From NCBI GenBank assembly GCA_038878695.1, contig JAVZVD010000001.1, positions 310,001 to 374,000 on the forward strand: a DNA stretch of 64,000 nucleotides. Direction: 5' to 3'. A program made the position numbers and the translations under genes. The first letter of the stretch is position 1, and every line of letters starts with the position of its first letter. This stretch comes from Fervidicoccaceae archaeon. GTDB lineage: Archaea; Thermoproteota; Thermoprotei_A; Sulfolobales; Fervidicoccaceae. Below the pieces are notes generated by a model. It worked only from the letters and a program-made list of their open reading frames with translations. It was not told the origin of the DNA and ran no database searches. Below, one piece after another: positions 54,161-57,729 of this stretch.

Positions 54161-54628
54161 TTAGAGAATGGACTCCATAGCCCTTCTCACGAAGAAAACC
54201 ACAAAGGGGTCGGTCGGCGACAGCTTGACGTAGCTTAGCGGAGGACTCCACGAGGGGAAGAGAGAACGTATCTCAGCTAGCGTCGGTCTCAGCGAGAAGG
54301 CCCTCGGCCTCACCACTTCTATTGCCACGGCCCTCGAGCTCCCTTCTATATATCTCTTGGCGTCTCTCCCGACGCCGCTATCTCTCTTAGACGAGACGTA
54401 TCTCCAGACCTCCTCAGGGGATCCTCTGAATACGGAGCCTATCTCGAAGCAACCGAAGAGCCTCTTGATCCTCCCGCTCACGTAGACCACGGCCAGGTCG
54501 CCGCGTTTTAGGTCCGACCCGGCGCCCCGCCTGAGTTCGTACTTCTTGAGACCGGAGAAGAGGGCTTTGGCGTACTCAGGCCTTAGCGAGAAGAGGAAGA
54601 GGTCACGCTCCGGTCGGAGCACGCTCAT
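54161..54628 (-). CDS. ASCH domain protein
   Basis: Small PUA-like ASCH protein, possibly RNA-binding. LFLFSLRPEYAKALFSGLKKYELRR (about 10-34, split here) is the defining motif, followed by DLAVVYVSGRIKRLFGCFEI and a C-terminal helix-strand part. ATG 54628 gives 155 residues and overlaps the transporter ATPase stop as ATGA; the open frame reaches 54670, but this junction makes the shorter start better. Its link to the metal transporter is only by position. Confidence 0.83.
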   Translation of the reverse strand: MSVLRPERDLFLFSLRPEYAKALFSGLKKYELRRGAGSDLKRGDLAVVYVSGRIKRLFGCFEIGSVFRGSPEEVWRYVSSKRDSGVGRDAKRYIEGSSRAVAIEVVRPRAFSLRPTLAEIRSLFPSWSPPLSYVKLSPTDPFVVFFVRRAMESIL

Positions 54629-55401
54629 CGCCTCACGCACGTGCCGATCGGTGCCAGAGCGCCTCGCCACGGGGAACCGAAGAAACTCTCGAGAACTTCA
54701 TCTCTCCAGACGGCGTGGGGAGGACCCCTCACGTAACGTTCCCGCTTGAGGAGCAGCAGATATGTGGCGTGCTCGAGCAGGTGCTCGACGTCGTGCGAGG
54801 TCACGACAACGATCTTGGTGCGCGCGAGGTCAGCCAGTAGCTCGGCTAGGAGAGGCCTACTGCCGGGGTCGACGGGCCCGAGAGGCTCGTCGAGAAGCAA
54901 TATCGGCGGGTCGTGGGCCAGAGCCCTCGCTATGAAGACTCTCTGCCTCTCGCCTCCGCTGAGCGTATTGATGGGGTTCGACCAAGCCTCTCTCCTCAAT
55001 CCCACGGCTTCGAGTAACCTCGCAGCCTCCTCGCGAGCTCTCCCAGAATTGAGGCGGGGCCAGCGGCGCCTCCTCGCCAGCCACTCGAAGGAGACGAGCT
55101 CCAGGGGGGTCATGGGAAACTCCGTGGTGAGCGGATACTGAGGCACGTATCCTGCTAGCTTCCCGGCCAGCGAGGGCCTCCCAGTCACGTCCTCACCGCA
55201 TAATATGACGCGGCCAGACGAAGGTTTTATGAGACCTAATATAGTGCGCAGGAGCGTAGTCTTGCCCCCGCCGTTGGGGCCGACAACTAGAACCAGGCCC
55301 GGGCCTCCTACCTTGAGCTCGAGATTCTGCAGAATCCGTTCGCCGTTTAAAGTAACTGTGAGGCTTTGTGCCTCGAGTGAGTAGTCCTCGCACCTCGTCA
55401 A
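54625..55401 (-). CDS. metal ABC transporter ATP-binding protein (ZnuC-like)
   Basis: ATPase of a zinc/manganese-type ABC importer, 258 residues. Walker A VVGPNGGGKTTLL (about 36-48), Q-loop PQYPLTTEFPM, signature LSGGERQRVFIARAL, Walker B ILLLDEPLG, and the His switch VVTSHDVEHLLEHA. TTG 55401 lies about 26 nt from a TATA box (AAATTAAAAT), so the mRNA is probably leaderless. It is divergent from the binding protein and permease and shares their operator. Confidence 0.92.
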   Translation of the reverse strand: MTRCEDYSLEAQSLTVTLNGERILQNLELKVGGPGLVLVVGPNGGGKTTLLRTILGLIKPSSGRVILCGEDVTGRPSLAGKLAGYVPQYPLTTEFPMTPLELVSFEWLARRRRWPRLNSGRAREEAARLLEAVGLRREAWSNPINTLSGGERQRVFIARALAHDPPILLLDEPLGPVDPGSRPLLAELLADLARTKIVVVTSHDVEHLLEHATYLLLLKRERYVRGPPHAVWRDEVLESFFGSPWRGALAPIGTCVRR

Positions 55402-55420: not shown

Positions 55421-55440
55421 TTAATTTGTGCACAACTTAA
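55421..55440. promoter_or_regulatory. 20-bp dyad between divergent transporter promoters
   Basis: TTAATTTGTGCACAACTTAA reads as TTAA-N-TTGTGCACAA-N-TTAA. The inner 10 bp are a perfect palindrome, and the outer TTAA arms are the cores of the two TATA boxes. A dimeric repressor bound here would block both directions at once. The ribbon-helix-helix regulator at 57346 is the obvious candidate. Confidence 0.7.
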
Positions 55441-55461
55441 AGGTTATCCCTCCGAGGAGGC

Positions 55462-56490
55462 GTGCACATCAAAATGATAAGAAGACCCTTCCGGGTCGTG
55501 CTCGTGGCGCTTCTGTTGGTCGCGCTTTCTAAGTGCACAGCGGAGGCCGAGGAGAAGCTGACGGTGGTCGTTACGATGGATCCTCTGGTCGGCGATTTGC
55601 TCGAGCTCGTTGACGATAGAGCTCGCGTGGTATCGGTAGCGAGCGGAGCCCCTGATCCTCACGAATACGCTCTTAAGCCGAGCGACGTCGAGCTCCTGAG
55701 GAGAGCCGACGTGATTATTACGACGCTTCACGCACCCTTCGAGTTAAGGATCCAAGAGCTCGTCGAGCGCGGGGAGCTGAGGCCGAGAGCTTACGTCGTG
55801 GTACACGAAGTGCCTGGAATCAAGCTTCTGAGAAATCCGGCGACGAGCCAACTTAATCTACACGGAGTCTTGTATCTCCCGGAAAATCTCAAGAGCTTCG
55901 TGACGTTCGTGGCATCTCTATTAAGCGAGCTCGACCCGGAGGGTCGAGATCTCTACCTAGAGAAGGCGCGAGACATGTTGATCAGGATAGAAGAGTTGGA
56001 GACGAGGGCAGCGGAGGCTCCGAGGCTAAGGGGGGTGATATCATCCCCGCTCGTCCAATACGCGGCCGTATTTCTGAATGTAGAACCGTCGCTCGTGTTG
56101 ACGATAGAGCCGGACGTCCCGCCCTCTCCCGATATCGCGGAGGAGGCCCTCGAGGCCCTCAGAACGAAGAGAGTTGACGTGGTCGTGGTCTGCGGGCGGA
56201 TCTTCGGCGGCACGGTGGAATACTGTGACCAAGCCGACGAGATTTTGGCGAGGTCTGCTCTAAAGTGGGGCGTGCCGCCAATCGTCGTGCCGCCCCCGAT
56301 GACTGGGCCAGGCTTTCTCGAGCACCTCGAGCTTGCTCTCGAGAGCTATGAGAGCGCTCGAGACCTCCTCGGGTTGACTGGTGGTGAGAGGCGGGAGAGA
56401 GAGATCTTCCTAGCGTCCGCGGTAGCAGCGGCAATCGCCATCTCGATGGCGCTCATTTACTCGGAGGGGAGGGAACTTGAGCCAGACTAA
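55462..56490 (+). CDS. metal ABC transporter binding protein (ZnuA-like)
   Basis: Extracytoplasmic metal-binding protein of 342 residues. N-terminal hydrophobic signal (about 12-25) followed by a Cys-containing stretch, then the ZnuA/TroA fold: metal-ligand His in PDPHEYALKPSD and LNLHGVLYLPENL, and the DVVVVCGRIFGG strand. A hydrophobic segment at the C-terminus (about 312-328) would anchor it in the membrane. GTG 55462 or ATG 55474 may start; GAGGAGG is at 55453-55459. Zn, Mn or Ni cannot be told apart. Confidence 0.87.
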   Translation: MHIKMIRRPFRVVLVALLLVALSKCTAEAEEKLTVVVTMDPLVGDLLELVDDRARVVSVASGAPDPHEYALKPSDVELLRRADVIITTLHAPFELRIQELVERGELRPRAYVVVHEVPGIKLLRNPATSQLNLHGVLYLPENLKSFVTFVASLLSELDPEGRDLYLEKARDMLIRIEELETRAAEAPRLRGVISSPLVQYAAVFLNVEPSLVLTIEPDVPPSPDIAEEALEALRTKRVDVVVVCGRIFGGTVEYCDQADEILARSALKWGVPPIVVPPPMTGPGFLEHLELALESYESARDLLGLTGGERREREIFLASAVAAAIAISMALIYSEGRELEPD

Positions 56491-57349
56491 AGTATTCCCG
56501 CTAATCGCGGCTTTAAGCTCTGCCGCCGTTCTGAGCTTCGCGGCGCTCAAGCCCGTCTCTCTCTCGTGGTTGGCTGCCACGATAGGAGCGTGCTTAGCAT
56601 TCGGCTCGCTCAGCCCGCTCCTCGTAGCTAGAAGGATGCTGTTCCTAGGCGGCGCACTGCCGCACGCCGCTCTGCTAGCGAGCGCCGTAGGCTACATCTC
56701 CTCTATCGCTCTCGACTTTAACTACTTCGCCGCCGCCGCGATCGCCGGAGCCCTGATGAGCGCCGCAATAGGGTTAGCGGCGTCTCGATCTGCAGACCCC
56801 GACCGAGTGGTCGCCGCATCGATCGGGTTGACAGCCTCGCTCGGCGTCCTGACCACGTACTACGTCGCCTCCGAGTATCCAGGGACGCTACGCGTTTCGA
56901 CGCTGTTACTCGGCGATCCGCTGCTCGCGGGCGAGGCCGAGGCTCTCGGAGCCCTAGTCTTCTCGATGGTAGTGATGATTTCGGTCTCGCTCATTTACAA
57001 AGAGGTCTTGCTGATCGGCCTCCAACCGAATGAGGCGGAGCTGACGGGGCTCAGGGCGAGGCTATATGATGCCTTCTTCTATTGTCTGCTGGGGCTCGCC
57101 GTCGTAACTATGCTGAGGATCGTGGGCTACGTGATGACTCACGTGCTTCTCCTGATACCAGGGAGCGCTGGTGCCTCGGCCTCGAGCAGCTCGCGCGGAG
57201 CTCTCGCAGCTAGCGTGGCTTTCTCGATGTCGTCGGCTGCGCTATCGTTATTTGCAAGCTCGCTGCTAGACGTCTCGCCTAATGCCGTGGCGGGTCTCGT
57301 GTTGTTAGCGATTTACGTTGCCATTGCTAGCAGGGGGAGAAGGGGTTGA
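56477..57349 (+). CDS. metal ABC transporter permease (ZnuB-like)
   Basis: Membrane part of the importer, 290 residues with about eight spans. The family pattern is visible in LSPLLVARRMLFLGGALPHAALLASA (split), the central ALGALVFSMVVMI, and PGSAGASASSSSRGALAASVA near the C-terminus. Start TTG 56477 with a strong GGAGGGGAGGG site, overlapping the binding protein by 14 nt. Its TGA overlaps the regulator's TTG. Confidence 0.9.
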   Translation: MSQTKVFPLIAALSSAAVLSFAALKPVSLSWLAATIGACLAFGSLSPLLVARRMLFLGGALPHAALLASAVGYISSIALDFNYFAAAAIAGALMSAAIGLAASRSADPDRVVAASIGLTASLGVLTTYYVASEYPGTLRVSTLLLGDPLLAGEAEALGALVFSMVVMISVSLIYKEVLLIGLQPNEAELTGLRARLYDAFFYCLLGLAVVTMLRIVGYVMTHVLLLIPGSAGASASSSSRGALAASVAFSMSSAALSLFASSLLDVSPNAVAGLVLLAIYVAIASRGRRG

Positions 57350-57729
57350 GAAAGAAGCGGTTCGGCGTATCGATCGACAGCTCTCTTTGGCGCGATCTCG
57401 TTGAGCTCAGTAAGTCTAGGAGCGTGACGCGGTCGGCGATCGTAGAAGAGGCCCTGAAAGTGTTCCTAAACAACGCTAAACACGCGCATCGTAGGCACGC
57501 GTGTTGCGGCCTCGTGGTGGCAACTGCTAGGAGCGCGGAGGAGCGAGAGAAAGTGAGTCGCATCATCGAGAGCGGGCATCCGGTTATACGCGGAGTGATC
57601 CACAGCCATGTGGAGGGGCTATGCATAGCGTTACTGTACGTCGAAGGGGACTCGGACGGCGTCGCATCGGTGTCCGAGGCGTTAGCGAGCAACGGCGTGA
57701 CGAGCTATTTCATACCGCTCGACCACTAA
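57346..57729 (+). CDS. NikR-like ribbon-helix-helix metal regulator
   Basis: Protein of 127 residues with an N-terminal ribbon-helix-helix domain (KKRFGVSIDSSLWRDLVELSKSRSVTRSAIVEEALK, about 2-38, split) and a C-terminal ACT-like domain with HSHVEGLC near 85-92. The His-x-His plus Cys arrangement recalls the nickel site of NikR, though the spacing to Cys is one residue shorter and the fourth His is shifted. It is last in the transporter operon (TTGA overlap) and likely controls it through the dyad at 55421. Confidence 0.85.
   Translation: MRKKRFGVSIDSSLWRDLVELSKSRSVTRSAIVEEALKVFLNNAKHAHRRHACCGLVVATARSAEEREKVSRIIESGHPVIRGVIHSHVEGLCIALLYVEGDSDGVASVSEALASNGVTSYFIPLDH

Follow-up and report, generated by a model that had tools for sequence, protein, structure and literature searches.

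A pair of palindromic octamers as the probable operator of a NikR-like regulator at a divergent ZnuABC-type importer in Fervidicoccaceae

Between the two divergent arms of a metal transporter in a Fervidicoccaceae archaeon lies a near-perfect inverted repeat whose inner octamer, by comparison with relatives, is one of two boxes conserved as a pair. These boxes are likely to form the operator of a NikR-derived, metal-dependent and autoregulated repressor of the ZnuABC-type importer, with zinc as the likeliest metal. The window referred to below is the whole stretch of DNA that was analysed, 64,000 nucleotides in length. Its features relevant here, with SBP denoting the substrate-binding protein, are as follows.

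54625-55401, minus strand: ABC transporter ATPase, forming the minus arm (Pfam ABC_tran, 2.4e-26)
55421-55440, no strand: near-perfect 20-bp dyad TTAATTTGTGCACAACTTAA, seen in the sequence
55427-55434, no strand: predicted operator box 1, TGTGCACA, present without mismatch in 53 of 58 gaps
55435-55443: TATA-like element adjoining box 1, CTTAAA on the plus strand and CTTTAAGT on the minus strand; TATA-like elements lie between the boxes in relatives
55461-55468, no strand: predicted operator box 2, CGTGCACA, 34 bp from box 1 and overlapping GTG 55462, a candidate start for the SBP gene
55462-56490, plus strand, start at GTG 55462 or ATG 55474: ZnuA-family metal-binding protein, the SBP (Pfam ZnuA, 2.1e-17)
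56477-57349, plus strand: ABC-3 family permease (Pfam ABC-3, 2.3e-25)
57346-57729, plus strand: last gene of the plus arm, encoding a NikR-like ribbon-helix-helix regulator that belongs to a distinct subfamily (Pfam RHH_3, 1.6e-5)

The importer parts ZnuA, ABC-3 and ABC_tran all score above the Pfam gathering thresholds, which gives the system a ZnuABC-type composition, and the importer proteins fall under the NCBIfam cut-offs of the zinc and manganese equivalogs compared. The plasmid collection yielded no match. On the plus strand the ORFs overlap: the permease begins at 56477, before the SBP ends at 56490, and the regulator begins at 57346, before the permease ends at 57349. Co-transcription is therefore probable, and would place the regulator inside its own target operon. 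A first-pass annotation of this DNA had placed a NikR-like ribbon-helix-helix regulator at the end of the plus arm and suggested a closed autoregulatory loop. The regulator is borne out by its position and its matches to NikR structures, and the loop, given the overlapping ORFs, is probable. A further minus-strand ORF at 54161-54670 overlaps the end of the ATPase gene; it is without a Pfam match and looks ASCH-like by eye.

The same annotation had described a 20-bp near-perfect inverted repeat in the divergent gap, reading it as a single dyad that could shut both arms and that included the TTAA core of both TATA boxes. The repeat is present, with nine of its ten pairs symmetric, and is flanked by the minus-strand ATPase ORF (start 55401) and the plus-strand SBP ORF (GTG 55462 or ATG 55474). 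Shuffling the 100-bp region 3000 times gave a dyad of equal symmetry in 10 cases; the whole window contains eight such symmetric 20-mers, against a mean of 2.8 and a largest count of 5 in 30 shuffles. Taken alone, the symmetry is modestly unlikely by chance; the dyad becomes significant because its inner octamer is conserved among relatives.

Relatives were sought in 147 genomes of the order, of which 101 gave regulator matches, some of them weak and comparable to those of NikR-type paralogues. Eighty of the relatives' loci were taken. A divergent ATPase/SBP gap was recognised in 57, making 58 gaps with the window, and the 23 loci without one (regulator alone, contig ends, paralogues or other layouts) were left out. 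The regulator lies on the SBP arm in 47 of the 57 relatives, on the ATPase arm in nine (eight from family f6, one from f10) and on neither in one (L090). All 58 gaps contain GTGCAC and 53 contain the full TGTGCACA, while the runner-up palindromic octamer is found in six. Across the 80 loci (773 kb) there are 79 copies of TGTGCACA, 73 of them inside 14.7 kb of gap. Relatives with the same gene order, then, retain the core of the dyad.

These boxes come in pairs. Two boxes, each with at most one mismatch, stand 32-35 bp apart in 50 of the 58 gaps, at spacings of 32 bp (23 gaps), 33 bp (20), 34 bp (5, window included) and 35 bp (2), and 20 rounds of shuffled gaps produced no pair of this kind. 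The other eight gaps have a two-mismatch partner box at 31-33 bp, a count without a control of its own. Box 2 of the window was absent from the first-pass annotation. The single-dyad reading was consequently rejected, since conservation is limited to the octamer and the octamer is one of two boxes about 33 bp apart. Information content in the relatives' gaps is 1.5-2 bits within the octamer, a figure raised in part by the selection of boxes with one mismatch or fewer, and below 0.2 bits outside it. This drop indicates that the conserved site excludes the dyad's outer arms, and the outer TTAA arms, unconserved in these gaps, were rejected as a component of it. It is very improbable that the 20-bp dyad is no more than two AT-rich core promoters that happen to be symmetric: the unconserved arms and the modest significance of the symmetry itself would suit such an origin, but relatives across the order share the inner octamer and carry it in pairs, and GTGCAC, its core, is seen again in two other families (f33 and f53). 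Across the gaps compared, chance symmetry is contradicted for the core and is true of the outer arms only.

The claim about the TATA boxes survives in part. TTAA does closely flank box 1 on both sides in the window, but the TTAA arms are unconserved, and relatives carry their TATA-like elements between the boxes. These elements occur there in both orientations, with 31 exact matches between the boxes against 2 in the 40-bp flanks. The element at 55435-55443 would be the best candidate for the minus-arm promoter, and it is possibly shared by both arms. The usual place of the plus-arm TATA element in relatives is just before box 2. The window differs, in that its spacing of 34 bp and the TTAA stretches hugging box 1 on both sides put the plus-arm promoter off that place. 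A sigma-70 promoter scan was set aside as uninformative in archaea. The location of the boxes in the divergent gap supports the earlier idea of a cis element able to serve both arms.

An exact-pair pattern was found once per genome in 38 of the 147 genomes, against one of 147 for the reversed control. The organism's own genome is not among the 38 because box 2 begins with C, so that the window pair is inexact. Within this 1.11-Mb genome, TTAATTTGTGCACAACTTAA is single-copy with up to three mismatches allowed. TTGTGCACAA has one exact copy and, at no more than one mismatch, seven sites, fewer than the 18 of its reversed control, and thus gives no sign of a dyad family. The genome search that had been proposed, for further dyads near metal genes, found none in the own genome, and at these mismatch limits there is no sign there of a regulon of many dyads.

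Of the 38 exact-pair genomes, 37 gave a regulator match; the exception is G105, whose contig breaks off inside the SBP gene. At L118, L119 and L189, whose regulator gene is at another place in the genome, the importer is nonetheless preceded by the pair. Twenty control loci around other ABC-3 permeases were also taken. Seventeen of other layouts were counted as controls, with L188 and L189 (divergent type) and L197 (partial) left out, and TGTGCACA is absent from all 17. Both divergent-type loci carry TGTGCACA, L189 as a pair.

What we regard as the strongest evidence that this regulator subfamily would read the boxes is a natural swap between families f6 and f11. In five f6 genomes with the regulator, boxes stand at the start of a different gene, encoding a membrane protein, in five of five cases: four have a 31-32-bp pair and one (G062) has one exact box. 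ABC-3 has no match in three of these genomes and a weak match only in two. The membrane protein occurs in 26 of the 147 genomes of the order, 21 in f11 and five in f6. At the loci scanned in f11, where the regulator subfamily was not found, TGTGCACA is absent at the membrane-protein gene in 21 of 21 genomes (scanned loci L201-L227; L228-L230 and weaker second copies were left out). The single-protein search gave no regulator match in f11, and the 13 f11 genomes listed with profile matches, at 6e-12 to 8e-18, score in the range of the NikR-type paralogue of the own genome (2e-16).

This membrane protein is about 300 residues long and unannotated (L121:4096-5022, L120:4113-5072 and L117:4055-4948, all on minus strands; homologues at L201-L226), and the three proteins read, those of L121, L120 and L117, share a PDEHTWP motif. 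It falls under every Pfam and NCBIfam cut-off, with sub-threshold LysE/NicO similarity only, and may be a metal importer that takes the place of the ABC system.

A different metal regulator, of the DtxR, Fur or ArsR type and encoded elsewhere, might instead bind the boxes, with the NikR-like gene a mere neighbour. Palindromes of 8 bp are compatible with other dimeric regulators, but the boxes come and go with the NikR-like subfamily, even when unlinked to it and even on a different target gene, which makes this improbable.

Outside the order, five of eight loci of family f33 (L163, L166, L170, L177, L179) carry GTGCAC pairs, spaced by 31-34 bp, between the SBP and ATPase genes, and the other three (L161, L165, L173) have no GTGCAC pair at 31-36 bp. 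The single f53 locus, L178, has a pair at 33 bp. Two pairs of 31-32 bp, with 41-42 bp between them, occur at L177:4347-4497 and L179:6979-7089, and the boxes of G277 and G302 follow a 32-41-32 spacing pattern. Two pairs in series in four f33 genomes make the pair look like the binding unit. At ten loci of family f20 (L162, L164, L167-L169, L171, L172, L174-L176) the regulator has no importer nearby and no pair was recognised; these loci count against the operator reading, as do the three f33 loci without a pair. A loose pair pattern was found in 8 of 11 f33 genomes against 7 of 11 for the reversed control, and in 1 of 14 f20 genomes against 6 of 14 for reversed controls; it is too noisy for a genome-wide judgement of either family. 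The f33 rows of four or more GTGCAC boxes would fit an arrangement with a separate pair for each divergent promoter.

The alignment profile of the regulator matches NikR structures, with 2bj1 the best (8.9e-16); the single sequence gave no phmmer match against the PDB at 0.001. An AF2 model (two sequences, mean pLDDT 76.5) contains a ribbon-helix-helix unit and a beta-alpha-beta-beta-alpha-beta domain, so that profile and model together show the NikR architecture of a ribbon-helix-helix followed by a C-terminal ferredoxin/ACT-like metal domain. In Foldseek, the top PDB matches of the model are NikR (best 3.4e-4), at a TM of about 0.45 over the whole chain, a low value that probably reflects a different orientation of the two domains. 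Among 45 chosen regulator sequences, F6, G7, S30, H51, C53, H86, H88, C93 and G101 are invariant, and R5, G7 and S9 of the DNA-facing strand are kept in 77, 78 and 73 of 79 regulators.

The metal site has been altered. E. coli NikR binds nickel through H76, H87, H89 and C95. The window regulator retains the corresponding nickel-site positions H86, H88 and C93 but has E75 at the fourth position, 11 residues before HxH, and so lacks the NikR site of three histidines and one cysteine. Glutamate or aspartate occupies this position in 61 of 79 regulators and histidine in one, L113, which is without H51 and C53. The added residues H46, H51 and C53 are present in 73, 77 and 77 of the 79. A NikR-type paralogue with histidine at the -11 position, judged by eye, is encoded in the own genome (L160:5049-5480; own genome C1:55484-55834). 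The window regulator therefore appears to be a paralogue whose metal site has changed, and the organism probably has two NikR-fold regulators.

It is unlikely that the protein is an ordinary nickel-sensing NikR and that the transporter imports nickel. The NikR fold, the three canonical ligand positions and the very weak NicO similarity of the membrane-protein target (0.23, in one of three proteins) agree with that reading, but set against them are the near-absence of histidine at -11, the new and near-invariant H46, H51 and C53, the separate protein with the NikR-type histidine and the Zn/Mn type of the transporter. The regulator also scores far under the NCBIfam NikR equivalog cut-offs (25.5 bits against 83, and 25.3 against 105).

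Six f9 regulators (L105, L107, L109, L111, L125, L126) have lost HxH...C and kept H46, H51 and C53 together with the boxes; regulators of this kind may sense something else, or sense through another site. Their box spacing is 34-35 bp in five and 33 bp in L125, while for the 47 other regulators it is 32 bp (23), 33 bp (21) or 34 bp (3). At most, this hints at co-variation between protein and operator, since L125 has the usual spacing of 33 bp and the correlation is confined to one family.

The ZnuA/ABC-3 importer family serves zinc, manganese or iron. In the binding protein, H67, H90 and H134 are present in 61, 62 and 62 of 62 aligned homologues, and this near-invariance leans toward zinc. Resting on family resemblance, we favour zinc somewhat as the sensed metal. 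The operator and regulator may be as proposed here with manganese or iron sensed instead: the best PDB match of the SBP is the manganese protein 4oxq (8.9e-8), and zinc and iron proteins are also among its matches. Manganese or iron nevertheless seems rather unlikely, as the three histidines and the His/Cys-rich regulator would fit zinc better. Nickel is less probable again, and other metals share what remains.

We envisage the proposed operator working as follows. When metal is ample, metal-loaded regulator would bind the boxes at 55427-55434 and 55461-55468, which lie about three helical turns apart. It would probably do so as a NikR-like tetramer with one ribbon-helix-helix dimer on each octamer, although the distance between paired boxes varies by 3-4 bp, a range wider than a rigid tetramer would favour. 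Bound regulator would cover the core promoters between and around the boxes and so block the loading of TBP/TFB or RNA polymerase. Both importer arms would be silenced, the ATPase in one direction and the SBP, permease and regulator in the other, the regulator's own gene included. When metal is scarce, both arms would be expressed.

Boxes of similar size are known from MetJ and CopG, in which one dimer occupies each box of roughly 8 bp with a beta-strand in the major groove, and in which adjacent boxes carry dimers in contact with each other. The present boxes are unlike these in standing three turns apart, and the regulator differs in having a C-terminal metal domain. With NikR (E. coli, H. 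pylori, P. horikoshii) it shares the ribbon-helix-helix and C-terminal metal domain, the two histidine and one cysteine positions and, by prediction, control of a metal ABC importer. It departs from NikR in having E75 in place of the fourth-ligand histidine, in its near-invariant H46, H51 and C53, and in its target, a ZnuABC-type importer. The operators also differ. That of E. coli NikR, as given in the available part of a review, is GTATGA-N16-TCATAC, with 22 bp between half-sites (PMC7055735), and delta-proteobacterial NikR sites, in the available part of another paper, are GTGTTAC-N13/14-GTAACAC (PMC545781). Set beside these two descriptions, the present operator, two palindromic TGTGCACA-type octamers 32-35 bp apart, is matched by neither. 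The available part of the latter paper also places delta-proteobacterial znuABC, where a regulator was found, under the Fur-family Zur, with znuABC-zur operons in Desulfovibrio (PMC545781). As in that arrangement, the regulator here is encoded beside a znuABC-type importer and putatively acts on its promoter; unlike Zur, it is of the ribbon-helix-helix type, with Pfam RHH_3 only, and has a different operator.

In the literature, no paper was found that links TGTGCACA to archaea, and those listed among the other papers containing it look unrelated. Searches on NikR in Thermoproteota or crenarchaea, zinc and operon found no such regulon, including in the available part of PMC2667541. In neither case is absence from print proven.

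We tentatively extend these comparisons to a bolder reading, possible rather than probable: that the NikR scaffold has been re-tooled as the zinc sensor, a functional Zur, of heat-loving Thermoproteota. It would have gained a new ligand set, and its tetramer would reach over three helical turns, one dimer per palindromic octamer, across a shared bidirectional promoter. The operator-regulator pair would have moved onto a different, unannotated importer gene where the ABC permease was lost.

NikR is described, in the available part of the review cited above, as the sole metal-regulated ribbon-helix-helix protein and as a nickel sensor (PMC7055735). If the present reading is true, metal-regulated ribbon-helix-helix proteins would have a second branch: a conserved sister subfamily whose ligands are altered and whose own operator stands on zinc-type importers. 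With the sequence rule, two octamers 32-35 bp apart, the target gene can be located in genomes that lack annotation, and among the genes so located is that of a membrane protein below every Pfam and NCBIfam cut-off. If the proposal holds, it suggests how these archaea control zinc uptake.
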